Shown in pieces: positions 367 to 14,148 of a stretch of DNA of 14,675 nucleotides. How positions within the stretch are numbered: the first letter of the stretch is position 1; each line of letters starts with the position of its first letter. Source of the DNA: an uncultured Clostridia bacterium (GTDB lineage: Bacteria > Bacillota > Clostridia > Oscillospirales > Oscillospiraceae); assembly GCA_946060825.1 (NCBI GenBank), contig CAMGPO010000002.1, positions 1 to 14,675 of the forward strand. Direction: 5' to 3'. The notes below the pieces were generated by a model. That model saw only the letters and a program-made list of their open reading frames with translations, made no database searches and had not been told where the DNA came from. Made by a program: the position numbers and the translations under genes.

Positions 367-369
367 TGC

Positions 370-402
370 AAAAAAAGGAGACCCTGGGGCCTCCTTTTTT
401 TT
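370..402 (+). terminator. Rho-independent terminator
   Basis: A-rich left arm with AGGAG, a CC/GG inner pair around a short loop, and the matching CTCCT arm running into eight T residues. It begins just after the TGA at 364-366. The A-tract and T-tract pair with each other, so it could also work on the other strand, but no minus-strand gene ends here. Confidence 0.9.
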
Positions 403-405
403 GCG

Positions 406-434
406 GCATAATGATGTCCTGTCCCACATATCCA
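406..434 (+). promoter_or_regulatory. Candidate sigma-E (mother-cell sporulation) promoter of spoIVA
   Basis: GCATAAT at 406-412 resembles the sigma-E -35 consensus (KMATATT, 6 of 7), and CATATCCA at 427-434 partly matches the -10 (CATACAHT, 5 of 8) after a 14-base spacer, the spacing expected for sigma-E. It ends 36 bases before the spoIVA start, between the upstream terminator and the gene. spoIVA is a sigma-E gene in Bacillus subtilis. The -10 match is imperfect, so this is an inference from position and spacing. Confidence 0.45.
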
Positions 435-470
435 TGTACAAACAATCCGAGTGGACATGGAGGGGCAGCT

Positions 471-1949: not shown

Positions 1950-1967
1950 TGGATTTGGAAGCAGATT

Positions 1968-2038
1968 TGTCATTCTGAGCGAAGCGAAGAATCTGATGTG
2001 CAGCAAAGAATTCTTCGGCCTGCGGCCTCAGAATGACA
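1968..2038. repeat. Imperfect inverted-repeat (REP/MITE-like) intergenic element
   Basis: TGTCATTCTGAG at 1968-1979 is perfectly mirrored by CTCAGAATGACA at 2027-2038, and inner bases pair again (GAAGAAT near 1986-1992 against ATTCTTC at 2010-2016), giving a 71-base imperfect palindrome that would fold into a long hairpin. It sits between convergent spoIVA and gltX. From memory, sequences beginning TGTCATTCTGAGCGAAG recur between genes in several bacterial genomes, so this is probably one copy of a dispersed family. Only one copy is in this window. It may also stop transcription leaving spoIVA. Confidence 0.75.
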
Positions 2039-2043
2039 TACGA

Positions 2044-2074
2044 AAGCGGCCGAAGGGAATTCCTTCGGCCGCTT
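2044..2074 (-). terminator. Probable terminator of gltX
   Basis: Perfect 13-base arms (AAGCGGCCGAAGG and its complement) around a 5-base GAATT loop, starting 10 bases after the gltX stop on the minus strand. The following tract (CTTTCG on the minus strand) is only weakly T-rich, so termination may be leaky or helped by the adjoining 1968-2038 hairpin. Its right arm resembles the right arm of that repeat (both contain GAATTC followed by TTCGGCC after zero or one extra base). Confidence 0.6.
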
Positions 2075-2084
2075 GGCGCAGGAT

Positions 2085-3563
2085 TCAGTTGGAGAGGCGG
2101 GCGATGGCGGCGCGGATGCGGCCCAGGGAATCCTCCTTGCCCAGCAGGGCGCACAGCTCCGTGGCACCGCCGGGGGTGGACTGCTTGCCGGAGATGGCCA
2201 CGCGGATGGGCCAGAGGACGACGCTGTTCTTGACGCCGAGCTGTCCCACGACGGTCAGCAGGGCCTCGTAGAGGGCTTCGTTGGTCCAGGTTTCCTGGGC
2301 CTCCAGCACCGGCAGGGCGGCCTGCAGAGCCTTGAGAGAGGTCTCCGCATTGCTCTTGGACTTCTTGTGGGTGTACATTCCGAGGTCATAGTCCGGGACG
2401 GCGTCGAGGAAGTCGACCTTCTCCGGTAGGTCGGAGAGGATTTCGCAGCGGGGCTGCAGCAGGGCGGCCACAGTGCGCAGGTCGATGTCCGTCCGGTGGA
2501 CGGATTTCCGGAGCCACGGCTCGGCCTTTTCATAGAAGGTCTCGGGGGAGAGGCGGCGGATGTATTCGCTGTTCATCCAGCGCAGCTTCTCGATGTCAAA
2601 GACGGCGGGGGACTTGGAGATGCCGGAGATATCGAAGGCCTTAGCCAGTTCGTTCAGCGTGAAGAACTCCTGCTCCGACAGCTCACCCTTGGGCGACCAG
2701 CCCAGCAGAGCCACATAGTTGAGAACAGCCTCGGTCAGATAGCCCTGGGCGATCAGATCCTCGTAGCTGGGGTCGCCGTGGCGCTTGGACATCTTGTGCT
2801 GGCTGTCGCGCATGACGGGAGAGCAGTGGACATAGGTGGGGATTTCCCAGCCAAAGGACTCGTAGAGCAGGTTGTACTTCGGGGCGGAGGAGAGGTACTC
2901 GGAGCCGCGGACGACGTGGGTGATGCCCATCAGATGGTCGTCGATGACGTTGGCGAAGTTGTAGGTCGGCAGACCATCTCGCTTGAGCAGAACCTGATCG
3001 TCAAGAGTAGCATTGTCCACGGTGATATCACCGAAGGAAGCGTCGTGGAAGGTCGTCTGACCCTCGGCGGGAATCCGCTGGCGGATGACGTAGGGCAGGC
3101 CGGCGGCCAGCTTCGCTTCCACCTCGGCCTGGGGCAGGCCGCGGCAGGGATCGGCGGCCCGGTTGAAGTCGCCGGAGTCCTCCTCGGATTCGGTCTTTTC
3201 ACAGAAGCAGTAGTAAGCGCCGCCCTTCTTCACCAGCAGCTCGGCGTACTTGCCGTAGAGGCCGCGGCGCTCGGTCTGGACATAGGGACCGACGGGACCT
3301 CCAACGTCGGGGCCTTCGTCGTGGTCCAGACCACATTCGGCCATGGTCTTGTAGATCACGTCCACGGCGCCTTCGACCAGACGGCCCTGGTCGGTATCCT
3401 CAATGCGGAGAATGAAGGTACCGCCGGCGTTCCGGGCGATGAGCCAGGTGTACAGGGCGGTGCGCAGATTGCCGACGTGCATATAGCCCGTGGGACTGGG
3501 GGCAAACCGGGTGCGGACCTTGCCCTTGGGGATCCGCGCTTCCAGTTCTTCAAAGAAATCCAT
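2085..3563 (-). CDS. gltX: Glutamate--tRNA ligase
   Basis: A cytoplasmic class I aminoacyl-tRNA synthetase that charges tRNA with glutamate. The 492-residue length is normal. The Rossmann catalytic domain opens with FAPSPTGYMHVGN (residues 20-32, the HIGH-equivalent signature), continues with RIEDTD (53-58), and the KMSKR loop is intact at 257-261. Cys119, Cys121 and Cys140 lie where bacterial enzymes carry a zinc-binding insertion. The C-terminal anticodon-binding helical domain includes a WPIRVAISG-type motif. The start is ATG with AGGAGG at 3571-3576 on the minus strand, spacing 7. It is transcribed alone from a consensus promoter, divergent from trpS and convergent with spoIVA. Whether it is discriminating (Glu only) or also makes Glu-tRNA(Gln) for a GatCAB amidotransferase cannot be told here; many Clostridia use the second route. 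Confidence 0.97.
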   Translation of the reverse strand: MDFFEELEARIPKGKVRTRFAPSPTGYMHVGNLRTALYTWLIARNAGGTFILRIEDTDQGRLVEGAVDVIYKTMAECGLDHDEGPDVGGPVGPYVQTERRGLYGKYAELLVKKGGAYYCFCEKTESEEDSGDFNRAADPCRGLPQAEVEAKLAAGLPYVIRQRIPAEGQTTFHDASFGDITVDNATLDDQVLLKRDGLPTYNFANVIDDHLMGITHVVRGSEYLSSAPKYNLLYESFGWEIPTYVHCSPVMRDSQHKMSKRHGDPSYEDLIAQGYLTEAVLNYVALLGWSPKGELSEQEFFTLNELAKAFDISGISKSPAVFDIEKLRWMNSEYIRRLSPETFYEKAEPWLRKSVHRTDIDLRTVAALLQPRCEILSDLPEKVDFLDAVPDYDLGMYTHKKSKSNAETSLKALQAALPVLEAQETWTNEALYEALLTVVGQLGVKNSVVLWPIRVAISGKQSTPGGATELCALLGKEDSLGRIRAAIARLSN

Positions 3564-3593
3564 GTGACTTCCTCCTGTTATTTCGTTGCTCCT

Positions 3594-3622
3594 ATCTTAT
3601 ATTTTTTCGGCCAATCTGTCAA
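3594..3622 (-). promoter_or_regulatory. Sigma-A promoter of gltX
   Basis: On the minus strand TTGACA (plus 3617-3622) is followed by a 17-base spacer and TAAGAT (plus 3594-3599). The -35 is perfect and the spacing optimal. The predicted transcript starts near 3587, giving a leader of about 25 bases, with no room for a T-box. Confidence 0.85.
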
Positions 3623-3629
3623 TGATTGA

Positions 3630-3658
3630 TTGATTCAGGCGGACGGATGTGTTAGAAT
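3630..3658 (+). promoter_or_regulatory. Sigma-A promoter of trpS
   Basis: TTGATT (3630-3635), a 17-base spacer, then TAGAAT (3653-3658). Transcription should begin near 3665, about 30 bases before the trpS start. Its -35 lies 7 bases from that of the divergent gltX promoter, so the polymerase sites are back to back. The short leader leaves no space for a tryptophan T-box. Confidence 0.8.
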
Positions 3659-3694
3659 AGGCCCAATGAATCTGGAACCGGAAGGTGTTTCGAA

Positions 3695-4690
3695 ATGAGC
3701 GAGAAAAAACGGATTTTCAGCGGCATCCAGCCCAGCGGCGACCTGACCCTGGGTTCCTATATGGGCGCCATCAAGAACTGGGTGGCCCTCCAGGACGAGT
3801 ATGACTGCCTGTTCTGCATCGTGGATATGCACGCCATCACGGTGCGGCAGGTCCCTGCGGATCTGCGCCGCCGCAGCCTTGAGCAGCTGGCCCAGTACAT
3901 CGCCTGTGGCCTCGATCCCAAGAAGAATATCATGTTCATTCAGAGCCATGTGCCCCAGCACGCGGAGCTGAGCTGGGTGCTGGGCTGCTATACCCAGTTC
4001 GGTGAGCTGAGCCGGATGACCCAGTTCAAGGACAAATCCGCCAAGCATGCCGACAATATCACCGCTGGTCTCTTCACCTATCCCGTTCTGATGGCCGCCG
4101 ACATCCTGCTCTACCAGGCCGACGCTGTTCCCGTGGGTGAAGATCAGAAGCAGCACGTGGAGCTGTGCCGCGACATTGCCGGCCGCTTCAACTACGTCTA
4201 CGGCGATACCTTCACTCTGCCGGAGCCCTTTATCCCCAAGATGGGCGCCCGGATCATGAGCCTCGGCGATCCGACCAGCAAGATGTCCAAGTCCGACCCC
4301 GACGGCTGCGTGTTCCTAATGGACAAGCCGGAGGATATCATGCGCAAGTTCAAACGGGCCGTCACCGACTGCGAGACTGCGGTGCGGTATGATCCGGCGG
4401 CCAAGCCCGGCATCTCCAACCTGCTGACGGTCTACTGCACGGCTACCGGTAAGACGATCGAGGAGGCGGAGCAGGAGTTCGCCGGACAGGGCTACGGCGT
4501 ATTCAAGCCCGCCGTCGGCGAGGCGGTCGTGGAGCTGCTGCGGCCCATCCGTGAGGAGACGGAGCGGCTTCTCAAGGACAAGGCCTATCTCGAAAGCGTC
4601 TACAAGGAGGGCGCGGAGCGGGCCCAGTACCTGGCCAACAAGACGCTGCGCAAGGTCTACAAAAAAGTGGGCTTTGTTGCCCGGGGCTGA
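3695..4690 (+). CDS. trpS: Tryptophan--tRNA ligase
   Basis: A class I aminoacyl-tRNA synthetase that charges tRNA(Trp); 331 residues is the usual bacterial length. It starts with FSGIQPSGDLTLGSYMGA (residues 8-25), the TrpRS form of the HIGH signature, has the conserved MAADILLYQADAVPVGEDQ segment (133-151) that lines the tryptophan and dimer sites, and an intact KMSKS loop (196-200). The start is ATG at 3695 with GGAAGG at 3680-3685, spacing 9. It is a single-gene unit between a consensus promoter and a strong terminator. Another synthetase, gltX, lies divergently next to it; there is no trp biosynthesis gene nearby and no leader attenuator, so expression is probably constitutive. Confidence 0.97.
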   Translation: MSEKKRIFSGIQPSGDLTLGSYMGAIKNWVALQDEYDCLFCIVDMHAITVRQVPADLRRRSLEQLAQYIACGLDPKKNIMFIQSHVPQHAELSWVLGCYTQFGELSRMTQFKDKSAKHADNITAGLFTYPVLMAADILLYQADAVPVGEDQKQHVELCRDIAGRFNYVYGDTFTLPEPFIPKMGARIMSLGDPTSKMSKSDPDGCVFLMDKPEDIMRKFKRAVTDCETAVRYDPAAKPGISNLLTVYCTATGKTIEEAEQEFAGQGYGVFKPAVGEAVVELLRPIREETERLLKDKAYLESVYKEGAERAQYLANKTLRKVYKKVGFVARG

Positions 4691-4698
4691 CGGAAGAG

Positions 4699-4734
4699 AA
4701 AAAATCCGCGCAGGAGATCCTGTGCGGATTTTTT
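4699..4734. terminator. Bidirectional terminator between trpS and the small-protein operon
   Basis: Arms AAAAAATCCGC(G)CAGGA at 4699-4715 and TCCTG(T)GCGGATTTTTT at 4718-4734 pair fully apart from one G-T position, with a GA loop. A-tract on one side and T-tract on the other make it work in both directions; it lies 8 bases after the trpS stop and 10 bases beyond the stop of the minus-strand gene ending at 4745. Confidence 0.92.
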
Positions 4735-4744
4735 CAGAGGACTG

Positions 4745-5011
4745 CTATTGCAGCAGAAAATAGAGGGCAATGGTCAGCAGCAGGGATGTGTTGTCGCTGC
4801 CGCTGTCGTTCATGAGCAGAAGCAGGATCAGCAGTAGGAGCAGATCTGCGGTGTCCATGCCGGACAGCAGGGAATTCTTCCGGGCCGGCGGTTTGACCGG
4901 CGCCGGCTTCTGCGGCGGCGGACAGGCCGGCTTCGACGGGACTGGTTTCCGCTCCTCCACGACCTGCCTGCGGTAGGTGCCGTCTTCTGAGGGAACATAG
5001 CGGTTATACAT
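4745..5011 (-). CDS. Small proline-rich protein with a double leucine-rich tail, third gene of the small-protein operon
   Basis: 88 residues, function unknown. Three zones are visible: a polar tyrosine/arginine start (MYNRYVPSEDGTYRR), a proline- and lysine-rich middle (about 22-44), and a C-terminal tail with two nearly pure leucine/isoleucine runs (about 57-67 and 77-87) split by the polar stretch NDSGSDNT. Each run is too short to span a bilayer as a normal helix, so the tail may form a membrane hairpin, dip into one leaflet, or self-assemble. GAAGGAG at 5018-5024 lies inside the end of the upstream gene, and only 3 bases separate the two genes, so they should be translationally coupled. 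From memory, proteins of this shape occur in spore-forming Clostridia, but I cannot name a function. A spore-envelope role would be a guess. Confidence 0.85.
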   Translation of the reverse strand: MYNRYVPSEDGTYRRQVVEERKPVPSKPACPPPQKPAPVKPPARKNSLLSGMDTADLLLLLILLLLMNDSGSDNTSLLLTIALYFLLQ

Positions 5012-5014
5012 GGT

Positions 5015-5362
5015 CTACTCCTTCTGGGCGAGACTGCGGAGGGCCGCTCCCGCGATTTGAGAGAGGCGGGCGGCCCGCAGGGCACGGTCGATGCGACGGC
5101 AGCGATCCTCAGAGCAATAGGGTTTCAGGGCGTTGAGCAGCTGTACCTCCCGGGGATCCACCGATCCGGCCTGACGAATCAGCTCTGCCATGGCCGGCAG
5201 GGCGCTTTCCGCGGGCGGCGGCTGCATGGCCTGGGATGGTTGCGGCGTCTCCTGCCGTTCCTCTGGCGGTGAAATGCCGAAGGATTTGGCGAGGGAGAGA
5301 ATCTGGGACATACTTTCGGGGTTCCCGAGAATTTGGCTGATGGTGCTTTCCAGATCCTCCAT
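5015..5362 (-). CDS. Small helical protein of unknown function, second gene of the small-protein operon
   Basis: 115 residues, family not recognised. It has a predicted helical N-terminus (about 1-30, ISQILGNPESMSQILSLAKS), a proline/glutamine-rich linker (about 32-52), and a second helical region (about 54-113) with LLNALKPYCSEDRCRRIDRA, an amphipathic basic segment that looks like a protein- or membrane-surface-binding helix. No signal peptide or membrane span. The start is ATG (minus, 5360-5362) with GGGAG at 5371-5375. It begins 4 bases after the stop of the upstream gene and ends 3 bases before the next start, so the three small proteins are almost certainly made together from one mRNA. 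Confidence 0.85.
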   Translation of the reverse strand: MEDLESTISQILGNPESMSQILSLAKSFGISPPEERQETPQPSQAMQPPPAESALPAMAELIRQAGSVDPREVQLLNALKPYCSEDRCRRIDRALRAARLSQIAGAALRSLAQKE

Positions 5363-5366
5363 GGGG

Positions 5367-5603
5367 TCACTCCCGGTTGAGCTTCTGGATCAGCTGAGAC
5401 GCTTCGCGGCTCTCCATCATCGGGGACAGAATGGCTTGGGCTTCTTCCTGGCGGCCGTTTTTCAGGGCCTCCGCTGCTTCGCGGAGCCGCTTGCCCCCAT
5501 CCTGGTTCAGAAGCCGCAGCAGCTTCTGTCCCTCCGGAGAGGTCAGCGCTTTTTTGACGTCGGCTTCGGAAAAATGAAAGTCGGAAAAATTGATTCCTGG
5601 CAT
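5367..5603 (-). CDS. Small helical protein of unknown function, first gene of the small-protein operon
   Basis: 78 residues, acidic/basic mixed and predicted all-helical, with no membrane segment or cysteine. It contains SEADVKKALTSPEGQKLL (about 12-29) and a helix ending in LSPMMESREASQLIQKL. The family is not recognised. The start is ATG (minus, 5601-5603) preceded by GGGAGG at 5615-5620, spacing 11. As first gene of the operon it should show the promoter: upstream to 5685 I see no convincing sigma-A pair on the minus strand, only a GCATA (plus 5656-5660) and CATTATA (plus 5635-5641) pair 14 bases apart, which resembles forespore sigma-F/G elements but is slightly too close. Confidence 0.85.
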   Translation of the reverse strand: MPGINFSDFHFSEADVKKALTSPEGQKLLRLLNQDGGKRLREAAEALKNGRQEEAQAILSPMMESREASQLIQKLNRE

Positions 5604-5611
5604 GATTATGA

Positions 5612-5640
5612 TTGCCTCCCTTCCGGCAGCTTGATATAAT
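5612..5640 (+). promoter_or_regulatory. Candidate sigma-A promoter of the phosphoesterase-coaX operon
   Basis: TATAAT at 5635-5640 is a perfect -10, preceded at 17 bases by TTGCCT (5612-5617), a moderate -35 that overlaps the complement of the opposite gene's ribosome binding site. Transcription would begin near 5647, inside a 10-base palindrome TAGTATACTA (5646-5655) that could be an operator. The promoter region is shared with the divergent small-protein operon. Confidence 0.6.
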
Positions 5641-5685
5641 GGGATTAGTATACTATATGCGGCGGAAGGTCAGGTGGTTCCTTTG

Positions 5686-6162
5686 GTGAAGCTTTTGGTG
5701 CTGTCGGATTCTCATGGCGTGCGAGAGGCTATGGAGGCGATCGTGCGGCGGGAGCATCCGGATCTCATCTATCATCTGGGGGACTACTATGCCGACGCTG
5801 AGTGGCTGCGGCAGCGGTTTTTCCACATCCCTGTCTTTTCCGTGACCGGCAACTGCGACTACGGCGTCTCCGGCCCGGAGCGGATTGTGGACGAGGTGGA
5901 GGGCGTGCGCATCTTCGCCTGCCATGGCCATCGCTACCGCGTCAAGTTCAGCCTGATGGCATTGAAGTATGCGGCAGAAGAACAGGGAACCTCCCTCTGC
6001 CTCTTTGGCCACACCCACGCGCCGCTCTGCGAGAACGCGGGGGGGATCACATTTTTGAATCCCGGCGCCTGCTGCGCCGGACGACCGGCCTATGGCCTGG
6101 TTACCCTCTCCGTCGGAGCGGCGGAATGCAGCCTGCGGAGGCTGGAGCAAACTGAAGAATAG
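5686..6162 (+). CDS. YfcE/MJ0936-type metallophosphoesterase
   Basis: A 158-residue calcineurin-like phosphoesterase with all metal-binding blocks: Asp8-X-His10 (SDSHG), Gly32-Asp33, Gly55-Asn56-Cys57-Asp58, His80 (ACHGH) and GHTH (108-111). Family members hydrolyse phosphodiesters with two divalent metals, and the physiological substrate is generally unknown; the closest named type is E. coli YfcE. The enzyme should be cytoplasmic. I chose GTG 5686 because it gives the typical MKLLVLSDSHG start with AGGTGG at 5672-5677 and 8-base spacing; GTG 5674 is in frame but adds four residues and has poorer spacing. It heads a compact operon: the coaX ribosome binding site AGGAG (6161-6165) overlaps its stop codon. 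Its link with CoA synthesis is positional only. Confidence 0.93.
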   Translation: MKLLVLSDSHGVREAMEAIVRREHPDLIYHLGDYYADAEWLRQRFFHIPVFSVTGNCDYGVSGPERIVDEVEGVRIFACHGHRYRVKFSLMALKYAAEEQGTSLCLFGHTHAPLCENAGGITFLNPGACCAGRPAYGLVTLSVGAAECSLRRLEQTEE

Positions 6163-6173
6163 GAGTCGTTTTT

Positions 6174-6944
6174 ATGATTTTAGCGGTTGACATCGGCAAC
6201 ACCAACGTCGTCCTCGGCGGCATTGAAGCGGGGAATATCCTGTTTGAGGCCCGGATTGCCACGGATCTCATCAAGACCTCTGACCAGTACGCGGTTGAGC
6301 TGAAGAACATCCTGTCGCTCTATGACGTGACGGGCGGCGACTTTGAGGGGAGCATCATCTCCTCCGTCGTGCCTCCGGTTCTCAATTCCTTCCGGACAGC
6401 CATCCGCAAGCTGACGGGGAATCTGCCGCTGGTGGTCGGACCCGGCATCAAGACGGGACTCAACATCCTGATCGACAACCCCTCCCAGACCGGCGGCGAT
6501 CTGATCGTCGGCGCTGTCGCGGCGATTCATGAATATGAGCCGCCCATGGCACTGATCGACATGGGTACGGCCACGACGATCTCTGTCATCAACGAAAAGG
6601 GAGCGCTGATCGGCGGCTGCATCTGCCCGGGCGTCCGCATTTCCATGGAGGCCCTGAACACCAGGACCGCCCAGCTTCCCGGTATCAGCCTGGAGGAGCC
6701 GAAGCGTGTCATCGGGCGGAATACCATCGACTGTATGCGCAGCGGTATCATGTATGGCGCTGCCGCTATGATCGACGGCCTGCTGGATCGGATGGAGGAA
6801 GAGGCGGGCCAGACGCTTAACGTCATCACGACCGGCGGTATTTCCCGCTTCGTGACGCCGCTCTGCCGCCGGAAGATGATTTACGACAAGGATCTTCTGC
6901 TCAAAGGACTCTGGATTCTCTATGAGCAGAACCGGAAGGCCTAA
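6174..6944 (+). CDS. coaX: Type III pantothenate kinase
   Basis: Catalyses ATP-dependent phosphorylation of pantothenate, the first step of CoA synthesis; type III enzymes need a monovalent cation and are not inhibited by CoA. The 256-residue length is typical. The ASKHA-fold signatures are present: phosphate-1 motif VDIGNTN (residues 5-11, Asp6), DNPSQTGGDLIVGAVAA (101-117) with the catalytic-base region, DMGTATT (129-135) and the GGCICPG turn (147-153). The arginine that often follows the Asp in GADR is leucine here (GGDL), a variant I believe also occurs in other Clostridia. The ribosome binding site AGGAG overlaps the stop of the preceding phosphoesterase gene, and the next gene starts immediately after its TAA, so all three are co-transcribed. 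Confidence 0.95.
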   Translation: MILAVDIGNTNVVLGGIEAGNILFEARIATDLIKTSDQYAVELKNILSLYDVTGGDFEGSIISSVVPPVLNSFRTAIRKLTGNLPLVVGPGIKTGLNILIDNPSQTGGDLIVGAVAAIHEYEPPMALIDMGTATTISVINEKGALIGGCICPGVRISMEALNTRTAQLPGISLEEPKRVIGRNTIDCMRSGIMYGAAAMIDGLLDRMEEEAGQTLNVITTGGISRFVTPLCRRKMIYDKDLLLKGLWILYEQNRKA

Positions 6945-8171
6945 ATGGGCGCCCGCGAGGATGGAGCCCTGTTTCTGCCGGTGGAGCGGCTTCTGGAGTT
7001 CTGCGAAAACCATGAGACCCCATTTTTCCTCTATGACGCTGGAACGATCCGGCGCCGTGCGGCGCAGTGGAAGGACGCATTTTCCTTTTGCCGGTACCGG
7101 CTCAGCGCCCCGGTGCGGGCCTTGCCCAATCCCCACGTTTTTCGTGTGCTGCGGGAATGCGGCGTCGGCGCGGTCTGTGCAAATGAAATGGAGCTGGAGC
7201 TGGCCCGGCGGGCCGGTTATGACCGCGGAGAGATGATTTATATGATGCACCGCCCGGAGGAACCGCCCCGGGATGTGCAGCTTATTCTTGACGATCCGGA
7301 GCAGCTGCAATGGCTTCCCAAGTTCCTGTCGGATCCGGTGGGGCTGCGCTTCACACCCGCTGAGGATGTGAAGCTGACACCGGTGACGGCCTTGCGCACG
7401 GCGCGGTGTCAGTTCGGCATGGACCAGGACCAGCTCATTGAGACGGCGCTGGCCCTTGTGGAGCGCGGCTGTCCCGCCGTTGGACTCCATGCCCAGTTTG
7501 CCACTGCACGGATGGAACGGGGCTTCTATCGCGTCCAGGCGGAGGCGCTGTTTGGCGCGGCTCTGCAGCTGCACCGGTGGAAGATTCCGCTGGCTTACTT
7601 TGACATCGGCGGCGGAATCGGCTGGAGTGACTCGCCCAACTGCGCAGTGAACAATATTCGTGCCATCGCAGAGGATATTTGGGAGCTTCATGCAAAGATG
7701 CTGGTTCCCGCCGGCCTTGGAGATGTGGAAATACGCAGTCAGCCAGGCCGCAATCTGCTGGCGCCGGGCGGAATCCTGGTCAGCAGGGTAGAGTCGGTTC
7801 GGAAAAAGGGCAGCGTCTTCCTGAACCTCGACGCCTCGTCTTCGGACATGATGCGGCATATTCTCTACGGCTCCTGCTACGGGATTCAGCTGGTTCCGCA
7901 TGACCCCGCTGACCGCGATGACAGCTGCTCGGTCTGCACGATCTGCGGATGGCTCCAGGAGCCCGGAGATAAGTTTGCGAGCGCACAGGTCCTGCCGCAG
8001 GCAAAGGCGGGCGACCTCTGCGTGTTCCGCGGCGTCGGCGCCTACGCGGCTGCGATGGGTTCACCTTACGGCGGGAATCTCAGCTGTGCCGAGTATCTTC
8101 TGGACGGCGAGATCCGGTTGATCCGCCGGCGGGAGCGACCTGCTGAATACCTGGCGACCCTTATACCATAA
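6945..8171 (+). CDS. Diaminopimelate-decarboxylase-like fold-III protein lacking key PLP-site residues (probable pseudoenzyme)
   Basis: 408 residues with the layout of LysA-type decarboxylases: an N-terminal TIM barrel and a C-terminal beta domain. Recognisable landmarks are TPFFLYD (25-31, LysA TPLYVYD), PNPHVFRVLRECG (61-73), RCQFGMD (154-160), YFDIGGGIGW (218-227, phosphate loop), QPGRNLLAPGG (266-276), and GAY followed by AEYLLDG (365-388). Aligned without gaps, the PLP lysine of KANPNP is Arg58 (CGG at 7116-7118). The PLP-stacking His of HIGS is Gln184, the Glu of EPGR is Gln266, and the substrate-site Cys of the CESGD motif is Gln338. It therefore probably cannot form a Schiff base and is either a non-catalytic relative or an enzyme of changed mechanism. 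GGAAGG (6934-6939) precedes ATG 6945, directly after the coaX stop. Its 3' end overlaps the convergent gene at 8161 by 11 bases. Fold confidence is good; loss of activity is inferred. Confidence 0.88.
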   Translation: MGAREDGALFLPVERLLEFCENHETPFFLYDAGTIRRRAAQWKDAFSFCRYRLSAPVRALPNPHVFRVLRECGVGAVCANEMELELARRAGYDRGEMIYMMHRPEEPPRDVQLILDDPEQLQWLPKFLSDPVGLRFTPAEDVKLTPVTALRTARCQFGMDQDQLIETALALVERGCPAVGLHAQFATARMERGFYRVQAEALFGAALQLHRWKIPLAYFDIGGGIGWSDSPNCAVNNIRAIAEDIWELHAKMLVPAGLGDVEIRSQPGRNLLAPGGILVSRVESVRKKGSVFLNLDASSSDMMRHILYGSCYGIQLVPHDPADRDDSCSVCTICGWLQEPGDKFASAQVLPQAKAGDLCVFRGVGAYAAAMGSPYGGNLSCAEYLLDGEIRLIRRRERPAEYLATLIP

Positions 8172-8349
8172 CAACGAGGACAGATGCGGCGATGACCAGG
8201 CAGGTCAGCAGTGTGAGGTAGCACAGAGCGTCCAGAATGGTGGCTGCCAGCTGCGCAAAGGCGGTGCGGCGGCTGCGGACTCTGCGACTGCAGGAGCGGC
8301 GGGATGCGGATTGCACGGTGGGAAACGGAATGACATGGTTGGATTTCAT
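8161..8349 (-). CDS. Small single-span membrane protein, unknown function
   Basis: 62 residues: a hydrophilic, strongly basic N-terminal half (several SRR-type arginine pairs at about 16-28) followed by one hydrophobic helix (about 33-61) running to the C-terminus, which predicts an N-in, tail-anchored membrane protein. I do not recognise the family. Support for a real gene is a near-perfect GAGGAGG ribosome binding site at plus 8357-8363 with 7-base spacing, a -10-like TATACT further upstream, and the clear basic-then-hydrophobic design, which chance frames seldom show. Its stop lies inside the 3' end of the convergent decarboxylase-like gene (11-base overlap). It could instead be a chance frame in a leader region. 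Confidence 0.6.
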   Translation of the reverse strand: MKSNHVIPFPTVQSASRRSCSRRVRSRRTAFAQLAATILDALCYLTLLTCLVIAASVLVVMV

Positions 8350-8353
8350 AATG

Positions 8354-8383
8354 TTGCCTCCTCTGTGTTTTCTTCAGTATAAC
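8354..8383 (+). promoter_or_regulatory. Candidate promoter of the alpha/beta hydrolase gene at 8426
   Basis: TTGCCT (8354-8359), an 18-base spacer and TATAAC (8378-8383). The same core read on the minus strand gives TATACT (plus 8376-8381), a -10 for the small membrane protein gene, though no good -35 is seen for that direction. The core may therefore act both ways. Confidence 0.5.
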
Positions 8384-8425
8384 GGAAGGACTGTACGATA
8401 AACTGGACAGAAAGGACTGAATAAT

Positions 8426-9337
8426 ATGGAATCGATGTATTTGCAGTCGGCTGGCGGTGGGCAGATCTTCTGCCGTGTCTGGAAGCCGGAGGGAACGCCG
8501 CGGGCGACGCTTCAGATTGTTCATGGCATCGCAGAGCATGTGGACCGCTACGATGAATTTGCCAGATTTTTGAATGAACACGGGATTCTGGTTGCGGCCG
8601 ACGACCATATGGGTCACGGCAAATCGATCGGAGAAGGAGAGGTTCCGGGCTTTTTCCGCGGGGGCTGGGATGCTGCGGTGGCCGATTCCCGGCAGCTCCA
8701 GGAGAAGCTGATGGAGGAATATCCGGATGTGCCCTGCTTCCTGCTGGGCCACAGCATGGGGTCCTTCATGGCGCGGACGATGCTCTTCCGCTATCCGGAC
8801 AGCGGCATCCGCGGCGCCATCATCTCCGGCACCGGCTGGCAGCCAGCCGTGATGCTGAAGGCAGGACTGGCCCTCTGCCGGCATGAGGAGAAAAAATTTG
8901 GCGAGACAAGTACCAGCAACGCGCTCAACCAAATTATTTTTGGAGGCTACAACAAGAAGTTCAAGCCCAACCGCACGCCTTTTGACTGGCTCTGTACGGA
9001 CAACACCGTGGTGGACCGATACATTGCGGATCCACTCTGCGGTTTTGACGCAACCATTGGACTTGCCCGGGATATGCTGACCGGGATCGGGATGATTCAG
9101 GACCGGTCCAATCTGGAAAAAATGAAAAAAGACCTGCCGGTCTGGTTCTTTGCCGGCGATAAGGATCCGGTCGGCAATATGGGAAAGGGCGTCCGCCAGG
9201 CCGCCGAGGCGTTCCGCAAAGCCGGTATGCAGAACGTTACCGTTACACTCTATGCGGGACGCCACGAGATGCTGAACGAGAAGAACAAAGCGCTCGTCTA
9301 TCAGGACGTACTCGCCTGGACGGATCAATACTGTTGA
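8426..9337 (+). CDS. Monoacylglycerol-lipase-like alpha/beta hydrolase (serine hydrolase, Hydrolase_4 type)
   Basis: 303 residues of canonical alpha/beta hydrolase. The oxyanion-hole strand is QIVHGIAEHVDRY (30-42), typical of monoacylglycerol lipase/lysophospholipase relatives, followed by the DHMGHGKS turn (60-67). The nucleophile elbow is GHSMGS (Ser110), the acid is Asp247 in AGDKDPVG, and the base is His280 in GRHEML, so the triad is complete. There is no signal peptide, so it acts in the cytoplasm on a lipid ester or similar small substrate that cannot be named from sequence. AAAGGA (8411-8416) lies 9 bases before the ATG. It is transcribed alone, with a strong terminator after it. A second, unrelated-looking alpha/beta hydrolase sits at 13068-14009. 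Confidence 0.92.
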   Translation: MESMYLQSAGGGQIFCRVWKPEGTPRATLQIVHGIAEHVDRYDEFARFLNEHGILVAADDHMGHGKSIGEGEVPGFFRGGWDAAVADSRQLQEKLMEEYPDVPCFLLGHSMGSFMARTMLFRYPDSGIRGAIISGTGWQPAVMLKAGLALCRHEEKKFGETSTSNALNQIIFGGYNKKFKPNRTPFDWLCTDNTVVDRYIADPLCGFDATIGLARDMLTGIGMIQDRSNLEKMKKDLPVWFFAGDKDPVGNMGKGVRQAAEAFRKAGMQNVTVTLYAGRHEMLNEKNKALVYQDVLAWTDQYC

Positions 9338-9360
9338 TTGACATAACTATTTTGAAATTT

Positions 9361-9415
9361 GGTGGGGCTTTTTGACGGCGATTCTGGAAATCGCGCAGAA
9401 AGCCCCAACTTTTTG
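9361..9415 (+). terminator. Terminator of the alpha/beta hydrolase gene
   Basis: Outer arms TGGGGCTTT (9363-9371) and AAAGCCCCA (9399-9407) are perfect complements, and an inner stem GCGATT (9378-9383)/AATCGC (9389-9394) caps the hairpin. Five T residues follow at 9410-9414. Confidence 0.85.
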
Positions 9416-9425
9416 AATAGAATTT

Positions 9426-9442
9426 AGTAACAAAAGTGTAAT
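9426..9442 (+). promoter_or_regulatory. WalR (YycF)-like binding box upstream of the lysozyme gene
   Basis: AGTAAC (9426-9431), 5 bases, then TGTAAT (9437-9442) match the WalR direct-repeat consensus TGTWAH-N5-TGTWAH at 11 of 12 fixed positions. The box ends 16 bases before the -35. WalRK controls peptidoglycan hydrolase genes in Firmicutes, which fits the gene downstream. The site is short, so chance is possible; no walRK genes are in the window. Confidence 0.5.
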
Positions 9443-9458
9443 ATTTTTTGCAAAATGG

Positions 9459-9487
9459 TTGCAATCATGTGGAATATCTGGTATAAT
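9459..9487 (+). promoter_or_regulatory. Strong extended -10 sigma-A promoter of the lysozyme gene
   Basis: TTGCAA (9459-9464), a 17-base spacer and TATAAT (9482-9487) with the TGG extension just before it. Transcription should start near 9494, about 30 bases before the ATG. Confidence 0.85.
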
Positions 9488-9504
9488 TCGTACACGAGAT
9501 ATTC
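9472..9504. repeat. 8-base perfect inverted repeat straddling the lysozyme -10
   Basis: GAATATCT (9472-9479) and AGATATTC (9497-9504) are exact complements with 17 bases between, and the -10 (9482-9487) and predicted start site lie inside. The spacing puts the arms a little over two helical turns apart, which would suit a dimeric repressor. No regulator is known here. Confidence 0.5.
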
Positions 9505-9524
9505 TGCCTAAGGAGCCTTGAAAT

Positions 9525-11747
9525 ATGAAAAAGAAGATCATCAGTCTGTTAGTGACTGTGGCATTGATGCTGGGCGTTGCATCTGTGACAGCCGTTGAGG
9601 CCGCGGCAGCCTCGCAGATGAAGGTCAGCGAGGAACTGATTGCGATCCTCAAGCAGTTCGAGGGCTTCCTCGAAAAACCGGTCTGGGACTACAGCCAGTA
9701 TTCCGTTGGATACGGCAGCGCTGTGGACGAGGACTCGGAGGACTTCGACCGCTATATGGAGGAAGGTATCACCGAGGAAGAGGCCGACGCTCTGCTCCGG
9801 GAATATGTGGCCATTGCGGAGAAGGCTGTCAACGGCATGATCGATACATACGGCCTGAATCTCAGCCAGCAGCAGTTTGATGCCCTGATCGATTTTTGCT
9901 ACAACTGCGGCACCGGCTGGATCAAGCAGGAGGGGAATTTCCGCAGCGCAGTCATCAACGGCGCTACGGGTAATGATTTCCTGAACGCCATCATCTCCTG
10001 GTGCAAGGCTGGCGGGAAGATCGAGACCGGCCTCATCAAGCGCCGCCTGGCAGAGGCCAACCTTTACCTCAATGGCGTCTATTCGGTGACGCCACCGAGC
10101 TGTTACTGCTATGTTATATACAATGCAAAGGGCGGTTATTGCGCAAAAGCGATTCAGGCCTATCAGGAAGGCGACGTGATTACAGAGCTGCCGACGCCCT
10201 CCAAGACGGATGCAAACTTTATCGGCTGGTTCAATGCCAGCAGCAATGGCGTGCTGGTGACGCAGCTCGACAGTAGCATCTCTGGTAGAACCCTGTTTGC
10301 CAACTGGGAAAACCTCGATGGCACTCCGGAGAAGGACCCGGAAGAGGTTGCTGTGAACTATAAGCGGGTTGTCCGTGTGAGCAACTCTCTGAATGTCCGG
10401 AAAGAGGCCAGCACGTCGAGCGATGTGATCAAAATCCTGTATGACGGCGATGTTGTGACGATTGTGGCAGAGCTTCAGACCGACGATCTGCTCTGGGGCA
10501 AGCTGGAAGAGGGCGGATGGATCGCCCTGAAGTATACGGAAGCCTATAAGGAGCCGGAGGAACCGGAAGAGCCCGAAGAGCCGGAAGAGCCGGAAGAGCC
10601 GGAAAAACCGGAAGCGCCCGCGGAGGAGATCGTCGTGACGGTGACCGGCTCCGTGGTGAATGTCCGCAGCGGCGCAGGTACGGACAACAGCGTTACCTCC
10701 GCCGTCCACTGCGGCGACAAAGTGACAATTGTGGAAGTCACCGATCTCAACGGAACCAAGTGGGGCAAACTTTCCACCGGCGGCTGGATCTGCCTGACCT
10801 ATACCGATTATCAGGCCGAACCGGCGGAGCCGGAAGAGCCGCAGCAGCCGTCTCAACCGCAGCAGCCAGCGGAGATCACAGTCAAAGTCACCAATGGTCC
10901 GATTAACGTTCGCAGCGGCGCAGGCACCAACAACAAGATTATTTCCAGCGTCTATAACGGCCAGAGCCTGACCATTACCGCTGTGACGGAGGTGGACGGC
11001 AGGCCCTGGGGCCAGCTTTCCGACGGCGGTTGGATCTGCCTGAGCTATACCGACTACAAGGCATCCGATAATGAGACCGGCGGCGAAAACCAGACGCCGA
11101 TTGCACCCTCCGGTACGACGGTCAAGGTCACCGGCAGCGCGGTCAATGTTCGGACAGGTCCCGGTACGAACAACGGCGTATCTACCGTGATCTACCGCGG
11201 CGCCAACGTCACAATTGTGGAGACAACAACAGTCAACGGCGCGATCTGGGGCAAGCTGTCCACCGGCGGCTGGATCGCTCTGCAGTATACGGATTACAGC
11301 GGCGGCGAAACGCAGACGCCCGCAGAGCCGGGCAATGCTTCCGGTGGATCTGTCACCGGTACAGTCAATGCGTCCAGCCTGAACGTTCGCAGTAAGGCCG
11401 GTATGGACGGCTCCGTGGTTGGTACCCTGTCCAAGGGGACGAGCGTGGAGATTCTGGAGCAGACCACCGTTGACGGTACGACCTGGGGCCGGATTTCCTC
11501 CGGCTGGATCAGTATGAGCTATGTCACCGTCCAGAACGGCGGCAGCGGAACGGCCTCCGGCGGCACGACGTACACGGTCACCGCAGATGTGGTCAATGTC
11601 CGCTCCGGCGCAGGGCTCAGCAACGGCGTCGTCTCGACGGTCACCAAAGGCACAAAGGTCACCATCGTGGAGACCGCCTCCGCCGACGGCATGACCTGGG
11701 GCAAGCTCTCCGGCGGCGGCTGGATCAGCATGACCTACGTGGCCTGA
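9525..11747 (+). CDS. Secreted GH24-type lysozyme with Flg_new/InlB-B-like repeat and six SH3b domains
   Basis: A 740-residue exported muramidase. Residues 1-29 form a signal peptide (MKKK, hydrophobic core, AAAA cleavage region). The lysozyme domain (about 33-185) has the T4/phage-type layout: Glu46 in QFEGF, Asp55 nine residues on, the SVGYG turn (60-64, Ser where Thr is usual and one residue nearer), and the late GLIKRRLAEANLYLNG motif (169-184). A repeat of the Flg_new/InlB-B class follows (about 195-262, ending in the typical aromatic FANW). Six SH3b domains follow (about 279-341, 368-429, 450-511, 531-591, 608-669, 681-740), each with NVR and WG(K/Q/R) signatures, joined by Pro/Glu- or Gly/Ser-rich linkers. 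SH3b units usually bind peptidoglycan. There is no LPXTG or membrane anchor. AAGGAG at 9510-9515 fixes the ATG. Likely roles are wall turnover, cell separation or lysis of other bacteria; there is no holin or other phage gene nearby. Confidence 0.93.
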   Translation: MKKKIISLLVTVALMLGVASVTAVEAAAASQMKVSEELIAILKQFEGFLEKPVWDYSQYSVGYGSAVDEDSEDFDRYMEEGITEEEADALLREYVAIAEKAVNGMIDTYGLNLSQQQFDALIDFCYNCGTGWIKQEGNFRSAVINGATGNDFLNAIISWCKAGGKIETGLIKRRLAEANLYLNGVYSVTPPSCYCYVIYNAKGGYCAKAIQAYQEGDVITELPTPSKTDANFIGWFNASSNGVLVTQLDSSISGRTLFANWENLDGTPEKDPEEVAVNYKRVVRVSNSLNVRKEASTSSDVIKILYDGDVVTIVAELQTDDLLWGKLEEGGWIALKYTEAYKEPEEPEEPEEPEEPEEPEKPEAPAEEIVVTVTGSVVNVRSGAGTDNSVTSAVHCGDKVTIVEVTDLNGTKWGKLSTGGWICLTYTDYQAEPAEPEEPQQPSQPQQPAEITVKVTNGPINVRSGAGTNNKIISSVYNGQSLTITAVTEVDGRPWGQLSDGGWICLSYTDYKASDNETGGENQTPIAPSGTTVKVTGSAVNVRTGPGTNNGVSTVIYRGANVTIVETTTVNGAIWGKLSTGGWIALQYTDYSGGETQTPAEPGNASGGSVTGTVNASSLNVRSKAGMDGSVVGTLSKGTSVEILEQTTVDGTTWGRISSGWISMSYVTVQNGGSGTASGGTTYTVTADVVNVRSGAGLSNGVVSTVTKGTKVTIVETASADGMTWGKLSGGGWISMTYVA
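10551..10619 (+). repeat. In-frame 9-base repeats encoding a PEE linker
   Basis: About seven tandem, partly degenerate copies of a 9-base unit (consensus CCGGAAGAG) encode Pro-Glu-Glu triplets between SH3b domains 1 and 2 of the lysozyme. Because the unit is a multiple of three, slippage would change linker length without breaking the frame. Confidence 0.85.
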
Positions 11748-11757
11748 ACGGAATCAG

Positions 11758-11789
11758 AAAACCGGCCGTGAATGCACGGCCGGTTTTTT
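11758..11789 (+). terminator. Terminator of the lysozyme gene
   Basis: Perfect 13-base stem AAAACCGGCCGTG (11758-11770) with complement at 11775-11787, an AATG loop and a six-T tract. It starts 10 bases after the stop codon. Confidence 0.95.
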
Positions 11790-11822
11790 CGCAGCCCATA
11801 CCCAAAGTCCCGATTATGGTAC

Positions 11823-11850
11823 TTGCATTCTGCTAGAATGCTGGTATAAC
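11823..11850 (+). promoter_or_regulatory. Promoter of the small-protein-truA operon, with an inverted repeat in its spacer
   Basis: TTGCAT (11823-11828), a 16-base spacer and TATAAC (11845-11850) with a TGG extended -10. GCATTC (11825-11830) and GAATGC (11836-11841) form a perfect inverted repeat with a 5-base gap lying between and touching the -35, a position where a bound protein would block polymerase. Confidence 0.75.
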
Positions 11851-11870
11851 ATAGAAGGGACGGGAACCAC

Positions 11871-11993
11871 ATGGCATATTCAGTCAAGTATATAAGAGGG
11901 CACATGGAAGTTTACGGCGAGGACGGGCGGTTCCTGTTCTCTGCCGACAGCGACCGGGAAATCCGGGAGACATTGGAGGAGCTGTACGATTGA
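11871..11993 (+). CDS. 40-residue protein of unknown function, overlapping the truA start
   Basis: MAYSVKYIRGHMEVYGEDGR is the first half; the rest (FLFSADSDREIRETLEELYD) is acidic and ends in a helix. It reads as a compact beta-beta-alpha unit: two strands (VKYIRGHMEVY and RFLFSA) then an amphipathic helix. I recall similar short proteins with a YIRGH-EVY core in Clostridia but no assigned function. Support for a real gene: ATG just after a good promoter, AAGGGA about 11 bases upstream, and a TGA at 11991-11993 that overlaps the TTG start of truA, with the truA ribosome binding site GGAGGAG (11975-11981) inside it. It may be a true small protein, or partly serve to couple truA translation. 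Confidence 0.75.
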   Translation: MAYSVKYIRGHMEVYGEDGRFLFSADSDREIRETLEELYD

Positions 11994-12733
11994 TTCGGAA
12001 TTTCAAGATCACTCTGGCCTATGACGGCACGCGCTACAGCGGCTGGCAGAAGCAGGGGAATACCGGGAACACCATCCAGGGCAAGCTGGAAAAGGTGATC
12101 TCCGCCATGTTCGGCACGGCGGTGGAGGTGCAGGGCAGCGGGAGAACCGACGCCGGTGTCCACGCCGCTGCTCAGACGGCGAATTTTAAAATGGATACGA
12201 AAGTCTCCGCAGCGGAGATCTGCCGCTACCTGAGGGCCTATCTGCCCCAGGATATCGGCGTTCTCTCCGTGGAGGAGGTGGATGCGCGGTTCCATGCCCG
12301 AATCTCCGCCAAGCAGAAAACCTATCGCTACCGCATCTGGAACTCGGACGTGCCCAATGTCTTTGAGCGGAAATACCTGTATCTCTGTCCAGAACCGCTG
12401 GATACGGCGGCCATGGAAGCCTGCGTGCCGTACTTCCTCGGTACCCACGACTTCCGGGCCTTCTGCTCCAATCCGGACTTGAAAAAGTCCTCTGTCCGCA
12501 CCATCTATGAGATGCGGCTGGAGCGGCTGGGGCCGGAGCTGCGCCTGACCGTGACCGGCAGCGGCTTCCTCTACAACATGGTGCGGCTGATTGCCGGCAC
12601 ACTTCTGGAAGTGGGTAGGGGACACCTGCGACCGGAGGAGATCCCGGAGATCCTGGAGCGCCAGGACCGGAGGAGAGCCGGACCAATGGCCCCGGCCTGT
12701 GGCCTTTGTATGATGGAGGTGGCGTACGAATGA
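11990..12733 (+). CDS. truA: tRNA pseudouridine(38-40) synthase TruA
   Basis: Converts uridines 38-40 in the anticodon arm of many tRNAs to pseudouridine. The 247-residue length is normal. It begins IRNFKITLAYDGTRYSGWQ (2-20), carries the catalytic Asp54 in GSGRTDAGVHA (49-59), the tRNA-binding KTYRYRIWN segment (about 109-117), the NMVRLIAGTLLEVG helix region, and ends in the usual APACGLCMMEVAYE. The start is a TTG at 11990-11992: GGAGGAG (11975-11981) lies 8 bases upstream and homology begins at once, and no ATG in frame fits. The start overlaps the stop of the 40-residue gene, and its own TGA overlaps the ATG of the next gene, so translation is probably coupled on both sides. Confidence 0.95.
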   Translation: MIRNFKITLAYDGTRYSGWQKQGNTGNTIQGKLEKVISAMFGTAVEVQGSGRTDAGVHAAAQTANFKMDTKVSAAEICRYLRAYLPQDIGVLSVEEVDARFHARISAKQKTYRYRIWNSDVPNVFERKYLYLCPEPLDTAAMEACVPYFLGTHDFRAFCSNPDLKKSSVRTIYEMRLERLGPELRLTVTGSGFLYNMVRLIAGTLLEVGRGHLRPEEIPEILERQDRRRAGPMAPACGLCMMEVAYE

Positions 12734-13071
12734 ACATTCAAATTTTCGGCAAGAGCAAGTGTTTCGACACAAAAAAGGCGGAGCGCTATTTCAAGGAGCG
12801 CAGAATTCCGTTTCAGTCCATTGACGTGACCCGGTACGGTATGGCGCCCCGGGAGTTTGACAGCGTCGTGCGGGCTTTGGGCGGCATCGACAACCTGATC
12901 GACTGGAATGTCAGACACCCGGACATCGACCTCATGAAATACATGGACGACACTGTGGCCAAGGAGGACAAGGTCTACGACAACCCGAAGCTGATGAAAA
13001 CGCCGGTTGTCCGAAATGGCAAGCAGGCCACCGTCGGCTACTGCCCGGAGGTCTGGGAGACCTGGAAATGA
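12730..13071 (+). CDS. ArsC/Spx-family thioredoxin-fold protein
   Basis: 113 residues with the ArsC/Spx fold. The N-terminus NIQIFGKSKCFDTKKAERYF (2-21) carries a single cysteine, Cys11, where ArsC has its catalytic Cys and Spx a CXXC pair. The C-terminal part has KLMKTPVVRNGKQATVGYCPEVW (cis-Pro92), the expected end of the family. Members act as glutathione/thioredoxin-linked arsenate reductases or as RNA polymerase-binding regulators (Spx). With no second cysteine in CXXC form and no arsenic genes nearby, neither role can be claimed; a Clostridia-specific subfamily is most likely. ATG 12730 overlaps the truA stop (ATGA), with GGAGGT at 12715-12720. The frame is open upstream to 12706, but those codons lie inside truA and lack homology. 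Confidence 0.88.
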   Translation: MNIQIFGKSKCFDTKKAERYFKERRIPFQSIDVTRYGMAPREFDSVVRALGGIDNLIDWNVRHPDIDLMKYMDDTVAKEDKVYDNPKLMKTPVVRNGKQATVGYCPEVWETWK

Positions 13072-14009
13072 CTGGCCTCTGGATCGCGGCGGCCCTCTTT
13101 GCTCTCTACTGGGCTGCCGTTTACGGGGTCTACCGTTTTGCTATTGTGCGGCGGGGCGGGAACCCGAACGTGACCGAAATCCACTATAAGCCGCTGCTGC
13201 CCTACAAAGAGGAAGCCGAGGCCGGAATCCGCTGGTTTCTCGACCGAAAGCCGGAGTCGGTCAGCATCCGATCCTATGACGGCTTGACACTCCGGGGCTA
13301 TTGGCTGGAACATCCTCAGGCGAAGGGGGCCGTCGTTCTGATGCACGGCCATCGCAGCAGCTGGGCGACGGATTTCAGCTGCGTCTTCCGCTTCTACTAC
13401 GAGCGGGGCTACTCCGTTCTGGCCTGCTGGCAGCGCGCCCACGGCGAAAGCGAGGGGGAGCACATCTGCTTCGGCGTGAAGGAGCGCTTCGACTGCAGGG
13501 ACTGGGTGCGGTTCCTCGAGACGCGGATCTCGGCGGATCAGCCGGTCTTTCTGGATGGCGTCTCCATGGGCGCCGCCACGGTGCTGATGGCCGCCGGACT
13601 GTCTGATCTGCCGGACTGCGTCCGCGGCGTCATTGCTGACAGCGGCTTCACCTCGGCCTGGGACGAGTTTGCCAGCATTTTGAAACGGCTGCATCTGCCG
13701 CTCCATCCGCTGATGGACTCTGCAAATTGGATGGCCCGTCGTCTTGCTGGATTTGATTTTCGGGAATGCCCGCCCCTGGACGCCGCCCGGGAGACGAAGC
13801 TGCCGCTGCTGCTGGTTCATGGCGAGGCGGATACCTATGTGCCGCCGGAATTCAGCCGCCAGAATTTCGAAGCCTGCTGCTCGGAAAAACGGCTGGTTAC
13901 GGTTTCAGGGGCGGTTCACGGCATGAGTTATCTCGTCGACCGGAATACCTGCCAGAGAGAACTGCTGGAATTTCTGAAATTATATGGCAAAAAAGAGGCT
14001 GCTGTTTGA
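13068..14009 (+). CDS. Membrane-anchored alpha/beta hydrolase (YqkD/S9-like)
   Basis: 313 residues. The N-terminus holds one hydrophobic helix (about 3-26) ending in arginines, which should anchor the protein rather than be cleaved off. The alpha/beta hydrolase domain follows: oxyanion region VVLMHGHRSS (89-98), nucleophile elbow DGVSMGAA (163-170, Ser166), acid Asp255 in HGEADTYVPP, and base His284 in GAVHGMS, so the triad is complete. Similar proteins in Firmicutes are of the B. subtilis YqkD kind, with unknown substrates (esters or peptides). It is the last gene of the operon: its ATG overlaps the stop of the ArsC-like gene, with GGGAGA at 13055-13060. Its last codons form the left arm of the terminator. 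Anchoring topology is inferred from hydrophobicity only. Confidence 0.92.
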   Translation: MTGLWIAAALFALYWAAVYGVYRFAIVRRGGNPNVTEIHYKPLLPYKEEAEAGIRWFLDRKPESVSIRSYDGLTLRGYWLEHPQAKGAVVLMHGHRSSWATDFSCVFRFYYERGYSVLACWQRAHGESEGEHICFGVKERFDCRDWVRFLETRISADQPVFLDGVSMGAATVLMAAGLSDLPDCVRGVIADSGFTSAWDEFASILKRLHLPLHPLMDSANWMARRLAGFDFRECPPLDAARETKLPLLLVHGEADTYVPPEFSRQNFEACCSEKRLVTVSGAVHGMSYLVDRNTCQRELLEFLKLYGKKEAAV

Positions 14010-14026
14010 GACAGCAGCCTCTTTTT
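13990..14026. terminator. Terminator of the truA operon, overlapping the coding end
   Basis: A 16-base stem AAAAAGAGGCTGCTGT (13990-14005) with perfect complement at 14011-14026, a 5-base loop and T-tract. The left arm encodes the last residues of the hydrolase, whose TGA lies in the loop. The paired A- and T-tracts allow function in either direction. Confidence 0.93.
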
Positions 14027-14044
14027 CTGTACATTTGGAGAAAC

Positions 14045-14060
14045 CAACCATGCATGGTTG
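14045..14060. repeat. 16-base perfect palindrome between two terminators
   Basis: CAACCATGCATGGTTG reads the same on both strands with no central gap. It lies in the 139-base gap between convergent genes, flanked by their terminators. Without a loop it is more like a protein-binding site than an RNA hairpin, but its function is unknown. Confidence 0.6.
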
Positions 14061-14093
14061 TGATGCCGGATCGGCGGAAGCCTTCTTTGACGC

Positions 14094-14133
14094 GAGAAAG
14101 AAAATGGCGCGCTGCAATTCCTTGCAGCGCGCC
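14094..14133 (-). terminator. Terminator of nifJ
   Basis: Perfect 12-base stem GGCGCGCTGCAA (14106-14117) with complement at 14122-14133 and a 4-base loop, followed on the minus strand by a T-rich tract (ATTTTCTTTCT). It lies 15 bases after the nifJ stop. Confidence 0.88.
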
Positions 14134-14148
14134 GGATTCAAAGGAATC

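Follow-up and report, generated by a model that had tools for sequence, protein, structure and literature searches.

A LysA-fold protein without the pyridoxal phosphate lysine, probably a maintained pseudoenzyme, is encoded behind mpp and coaX in an uncultured Clostridia bacterium

Introduction

Recurrent inactive forms of ornithine decarboxylase (ODC) were reportedly described in a paper of 2010. The animal antizyme inhibitor AZIN1 is a decarboxylase homologue that is unable to bind pyridoxal 5'-phosphate (PLP) and that has no activity (PMC6313458), and the trypanosomatid prozymes are catalytically dead paralogues that activate their partners (PMC3663545). Here we analyse a stretch of 14,675 nucleotides from an uncultured Clostridia bacterium of the Oscillospiraceae (GCA_946060825.1, contig CAMGPO010000002.1, positions 1 to 14,675, forward strand; hereafter, the window), in which the open reading frame (ORF) 6945..8171, behind mpp and coaX, encodes a LysA-type protein (hereafter, the window protein) lacking the PLP lysine.

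The best match of the window protein is LysA-type and not ODC-type. It shares the whole fold and the order of landmarks with LysA (TIGR01048; Helicobacter pylori 3c5q/2qgh and Aquifex aeolicus 2p3e), and its closest relatives also share the phosphate-cup residues; it differs from LysA in having no Schiff-base lysine and in having Gln for the SKFG Lys, the EPGR Glu and the catalytic Cys. It resembles AZIN1 as a decarboxylase homologue without PLP binding, although AZIN1 belongs to the eukaryotic ODC branch and acts on antizyme, which is not in evidence here. Prozymes derive from other kinds of enzyme (S-adenosylmethionine decarboxylase, deoxyhypusine synthase) and have a known active partner, whereas none is known for the window protein. 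Among the matches listed, our literature search retrieved no LysA-type or bacterial inactive counterpart and no link to coaX; inactive decarboxylase homologues with a regulatory role have been described for eukaryotic ODC (AZIN).

Results

The product of the ORF at 6945..8171 (+ strand), of 408 amino acids, matches the profiles PF02784 and PF00278 of the ornithine/diaminopimelate/arginine decarboxylase fold family, and has the corresponding barrel and sheet fold. The original prediction had this frame and its codon coordinates right, as well as its central claim, a gapless match to the LysA lysine motif with an arginine at the Schiff-base position. VRALPNPH matches, with no internal gap, the lysine motif found in the solved LysA proteins 2p3e, 1knw and 3c5q, and does so in multiple alignments as well, placing Arg58 (codon CGG, 7116..7118, + strand) at the lysine. 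Four other landmarks, all on the + strand, are now glutamines: Gln156 (CAG, 7410..7412) at the Lys of SKFG, Gln184 (7494..7496) at the His of HIGS, Gln266 (7740..7742) at the Glu of EPGR, which we take to be the partner of the pyridine nitrogen of PLP, and Gln338 (7956..7958) at the partner-subunit Cys of CESGD. With the LysA equivalog model TIGR01048, the protein scores 165.2 bits, below the curated cut-off of 297.9, and membership in LysA was rejected on this basis. Because an internal aldimine cannot form without the lysine, decarboxylation by the window protein is very unlikely.

A search of 5.8 billion proteins retrieved P0002-P0010, with 42-99% identity to the window protein, and P0044, with 39%. 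None of these ten has the PLP lysine, which is replaced by Arg except for Ser in P0007 (labelled by its source as a hypothetical protein from an Oscillospiraceae bacterium metagenome-assembled genome) and Gly in P0008; the proteins other than P0007 bear no label. Since relatives share the replacements, a strain-specific accident was rejected. Counts for this window subclade refer to ten rows, comprising the window protein, P0003-P0010 and P0044 (relatives with 39-97% identity), with the 99% copy P0002 left out. Conservation, proposed as a check for three of the replacements, is complete for Gln184 and Gln338 and partial for Arg58 (R/R/R/R/R/S/G/R/R/R, that is, 8/10); Gln156, Gln266 and Glu339 are likewise present in 10/10 rows. 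The best lysine column anywhere in these rows reaches 6/10, so the Schiff-base lysine of LysA and other PLP fold-III decarboxylases has no conserved counterpart in the subclade. Invariant positions include 14 of 16 presumed active-site landmarks of LysA and ODC, against 86 among all 408 positions (Fisher p 1.2e-8), a pattern that points the same way as purifying selection. Among them are Gly222-224, Gly268-Arg269 and Tyr367, of the glycine-rich loop and phosphate cup; the survival of the loop and of GAY, as previously claimed, therefore stands in the window subclade, but the cup (GGG loop, GR, GAY) is not kept throughout the wider family described below, some members of which have lost parts of it.

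In the same bacterial family, 205 of 400 genomes, that of the window included, contain matches at E 1e-20. The lysine is present in all 65 locus rows read, among them the canonical LysA of the cell, and most of these rows show FAVKATPNP or FAVKATPTP, AKYG, HAFLAS, TELGR and CENND. The lysine-keeping LysA-like subfamily of this bacterial order (mostly CENND and HAFLAS) comprises the closest broad relatives of the window protein, with 31-37% identity among the matches listed. Two of its members scored 263.4 and 282.4 bits, below the lysA cut-off, and one gene lies at about 2 kb from dapF; neither mpp nor coaX was found around these genes in the eight stretches examined (L108-L115).

Comparison with 16 lysine-keeping relatives separates what was lost from what had already changed. 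Like the window protein, they have no HIGS His (Phe, Met or Tyr in 16/16), and their CESGD Cys site is variable (C in 13/16; S, A and P once each); unlike it, they keep Lys58, Lys156 and Glu266, each in 16/16. For this reason, the residues genuinely lost in the descent of the window protein are, as read from the alignments, Lys58, Lys156 and Glu266; the His had disappeared before, and the Cys site had already become variable, so that Gln184, and perhaps Gln338, would have replaced residues that were already changed or free. The original claim of glutamine replacements at functional sites needs amending accordingly: it is borne out for Lys156 and Glu266, but is partly wrong for the His, and at the Cys site the subclade is uniformly Gln although that position was not strictly kept before.

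Four ORFs of 601-606 residues with alike starts were observed as well (L108 6279-8096, L109 5734-7548, L110 2238-4055 and L111 5014-6816). The Pfam search, done on L108 (from G033) only, shows a DUF5662 domain at the N-terminus, fused to a LysA-like decarboxylase that keeps the lysine. The fusion (L108, with L109-L111 starting alike) is a near relative of the genes found behind mpp-coaX and has either Ser or Cys where LysA has its Cys. It differs from those genes in keeping the lysine, in the additional DUF5662 domain (L108) and in coming from a stretch that contains neither mpp nor coaX. Separately, a lysine-keeping LysA-like gene in G043 (L158 4581-5818) is split over two frames, apparently by a frameshift or an assembly error.

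Weaker second matches in other genomes include LysA-fold frames of 392-421 amino acids with the lysine replaced, which immediately follow coaX or, at loci lacking coaX, mpp. Of 12 locus genes that were read, 11 have such a frame without stops; fragments ending short of the lysine position were left unscored. Carriers total 18 genomes from 11 genera, all with the gene on the same strand as its neighbour, the matched parts being separated by 1-159 bases. The gene is present in 13 of the 34 loci with both mpp and coaX, ten of the 34 being non-blind picks (the window, its congener, G012 and seven led by matches). A survey led by coaX found it in 5 of the 60 coaX loci fetched, or 5 of the 24 with mpp-coaX, adding L168, L171, L174 and L196 and confirming L177, and in five loci (L116, L151, L152, L157 and L223, the latter from G053) it follows mpp without coaX. 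Scanning genome contigs with P0001 found nothing, and the scan with A2 found no close relative, the one Burkholderiales locus retrieved, at 29%, being set aside.

Over the 18 carriers, the lysine position is R in 11, and A, S, M, H, W and C once each; the single K occurs in G140 (L148 4901-6154), the only locus orthologue with the PLP lysine, which also keeps the Glu and a His at the HIGS site, carries Ser at the Cys position, and is a possible intermediate. The wider 18-row lists, from which G281, G016, G123 and G053 were left out and which include P0006, P0007, P0009, P0012 and the window protein, contain no lysine column above 8/18. A displaced lysine was rejected on the basis of this maximum and that of the subclade.

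All 11 lysine-less proteins then known, including that of the window, formed one group in a 100-row tree (SH-like approximate likelihood-ratio test, SH-aLRT, 99). The same applies to the lysine-less proteins plus the locus genes in a 50-row tree with midpoint root (bootstrap 99, SH-aLRT 95, 98% of 200 bootstrap trees), where the neighbours are lysine-keeping near relatives, including the DUF5662-decarboxylase fusion. At least two changes of the lysine are needed in the tree because G140 keeps it, and the inner joints are unsure because several end branches are long. P0002 was left out of both trees, and the 50-row tree kept 10 of the 65 main-branch loci and was made without the two G016 pieces, the cut-off G123 piece, ten distant LysA-type rows and G053, found later; A3 was made without 13 weaker database matches (P0023, P0028, P0031 and P0034-P0043).

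Selection was best measured in a trio of species of genus g54 (G197, G053 and G281), whose locus protein, with the lysine changed to Arg, shows 96% identity. The ratio of nonsynonymous to synonymous substitution rates (dN/dS) of the locus gene was 0.043, 0.036 and 0.041 (398 codons, no gap; dS 0.39-0.53), and that of the LysA paralogue which keeps the lysine in these three genomes was 0.041, 0.031 and 0.046. This equality indicates that the lysine-less member is held as strongly as an ordinary enzyme, under purifying selection despite its lost catalytic residues. Neutral decay was rejected as a general reading. The existence of a lysine-less group with mostly intact frames, together with these values, upholds the view of a maintained but changed protein rather than random decay. 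By these estimates, constraint on the lysine-less member is like that on a normal enzyme when close species are compared, and across longer spans the family changes more quickly than the genes beside it.

In the window, the run starts with mpp (5674..6162, + strand), coding for a YfcE-type metallophosphoesterase and found at the same place in the congener G062, followed by coaX (6174..6944, + strand), for a type III pantothenate kinase. The TAA of coaX directly abuts the ATG at 6945, and GGAAGG is found upstream of this ATG. A promoter-like site, TATAAT with a TG extension, lies upstream of mpp (5612..5640, + strand) as a consensus match only; two promoter-like sites were counted, and shuffled sequences gave 0.9 on average. 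Because the coaX joint is tight and neither promoter-like nor terminator-like sites were found in the joints between mpp, coaX and the 6945 ORF, the three genes are likely to be on one transcript. Congener G062 has the gene order of the window: spoIVA, gltX, trpS, two small genes, mpp, coaX, abh, the large 9525 ORF, truA and arsC, where gltX, trpS, truA and arsC are names presumed from the sequences. A 62-residue ORF (8161-8349, - strand) overlaps the 3' end of the pseudo-decarboxylase gene tail to tail, and DNA resembling it by eye occurs in G062 between coaX and abh (L117 6940-7260).

Discussion

Our comparisons demonstrate a protein with the predicted fold of LysA and neither a Schiff-base nor a substitute lysine, encoded at the same place in many genera and under strong purifying selection in one trio. 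We consider that the window protein, encoded third in an mpp-coaX-pseudo-lysA run, is probably a pseudoenzyme that descends from a LysA-type decarboxylase and has been maintained, and that it probably has a new, non-enzymatic job. We infer that it would neither form an internal aldimine with PLP nor decarboxylate, and that it would work by non-covalent binding; a binding role tied to the mpp-coaX operon is the one that we favour.

Several observations weigh against this interpretation. The gene is patchily distributed, being absent from 21 of the 34 mpp-coaX loci, and lineages can do without it in the long run. In the congener G062, coaX and abh have no decarboxylase between them, nor any remnant of the gene by tblastn, and matches above 165 bits occur in only 2 of the 81 genomes of genus g50 (G313 and G194); 12 of its 43 other matching genomes were read, and all 12 keep the lysine, in stretches that show neither mpp nor coaX. 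Divergence is fast, with locus genes from 11 loci showing 24-31% identity to the window protein while CoaX keeps 61-70% in the other carriers that have it (12 genomes). In addition, dN/dS, measured outside the window's own subclade, was 0.23 and 0.42 in two distant pairs of the locus gene at dS of about 1.9 (a third pair was saturated), and lower in their neighbours (0.15 and 0.36 for mpp; 0.16 for coaX, one pair). The gene of G016 (L116 4973-6241, with Ala at the lysine position) has one in-frame TAG that splits two otherwise open pieces and that may reflect assembly error, recoding or loss. Finally, pocket residues vary by branch, and some members are without parts of the Gly-rich loop, Gly268-Arg269 or Tyr367, making one shared ligand doubtful.

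The patchy presence, the fast divergence, the higher values of the distant pairs and the G016 stop would all fit a gene on its way out under relaxed selection, its changes being decay. This is very improbable, however, given the low trio dN/dS without gaps despite considerable dS, which largely refutes it for the G197 lineage, the 11 of 12 stop-free frames and the invariant Gln set. Still more improbable, indeed hardly credible, is a working decarboxylase with another lysine in charge: the fold and some pocket residues are kept, but no lysine column surpasses the values given above for either set. An enzyme with new chemistry, catalysing without a Schiff base and binding PLP, or some other phosphate cofactor, through non-covalent contacts, might explain why landmarks of the window subclade are kept far above average and why the Gln residues, Glu339 and Asp342 are fixed; the same positions are scattered in the wider family, implying that there is no shared catalytic set, and we regard this possibility as unlikely.

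The active site of this decarboxylase family lies between subunits, and the window protein could accordingly be a subunit that, in the manner of a prozyme or an antizyme inhibitor, pairs with active LysA and, acting through the dimer interface that the two share, turns its activity on or off. A second LysA-type gene exists in 15 of the 18 carriers, including the genome of the window, whose lysA scores well with TIGR01048 (429.2 bits), and precedents elsewhere are the activating dead paralogues (PMC3663545) and AZIN1, without PLP binding (PMC6313458). Such a role is not general, because G313 (98% complete), G160 (87%) and G184 (70%) show no other LysA-type gene at E 1e-8; besides, the locus is linked to coaX and mpp, not to lysA, and the window protein is only 24-25% identical to the cell's own LysA. 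We also consider this alternative unlikely.

Returning to the maintained pseudoenzyme, four fixed Gln replacing PLP contacts would surround the kept phosphate cup (Gly222-224, Gly268-Arg269 and Tyr367) in the window's subclade, an arrangement that would suit a phosphorylated, hydrogen-bonding ligand. We mention 4'-phosphopantothenate as a candidate, a rather doubtful guess made because coaX adjoins and the cup is kept. The original suggestion of a phosphate ligand or of a role in CoA metabolism is likewise a conjecture: the gene directly follows coaX in 13 genomes and the window subclade keeps the cup, but in five genomes the neighbour is mpp alone. As other members have changed the cup, the job shared across the family may instead be of protein-protein type, for instance adjusting how active CoaX or the phosphoesterase is.

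These genes are easily named diaminopimelate decarboxylase, which calls for caution in annotation. It is conceivable, though rather doubtful, that within a single family of bacteria a duplicate of LysA lost the PLP lysine, became fixed behind mpp-coaX and came to sense or carry, by non-covalent binding, a precursor of coenzyme A (CoA), namely 4'-phosphopantothenate; the old phosphate cup of PLP would then have been reused, with the ring contacts swapped for amides in the window's branch. In any case, a putative pseudoenzyme at mpp-coaX in multiple genera would offer a concrete handle on the reuse of a fold without its cofactor, and perhaps also on the control of CoA synthesis.
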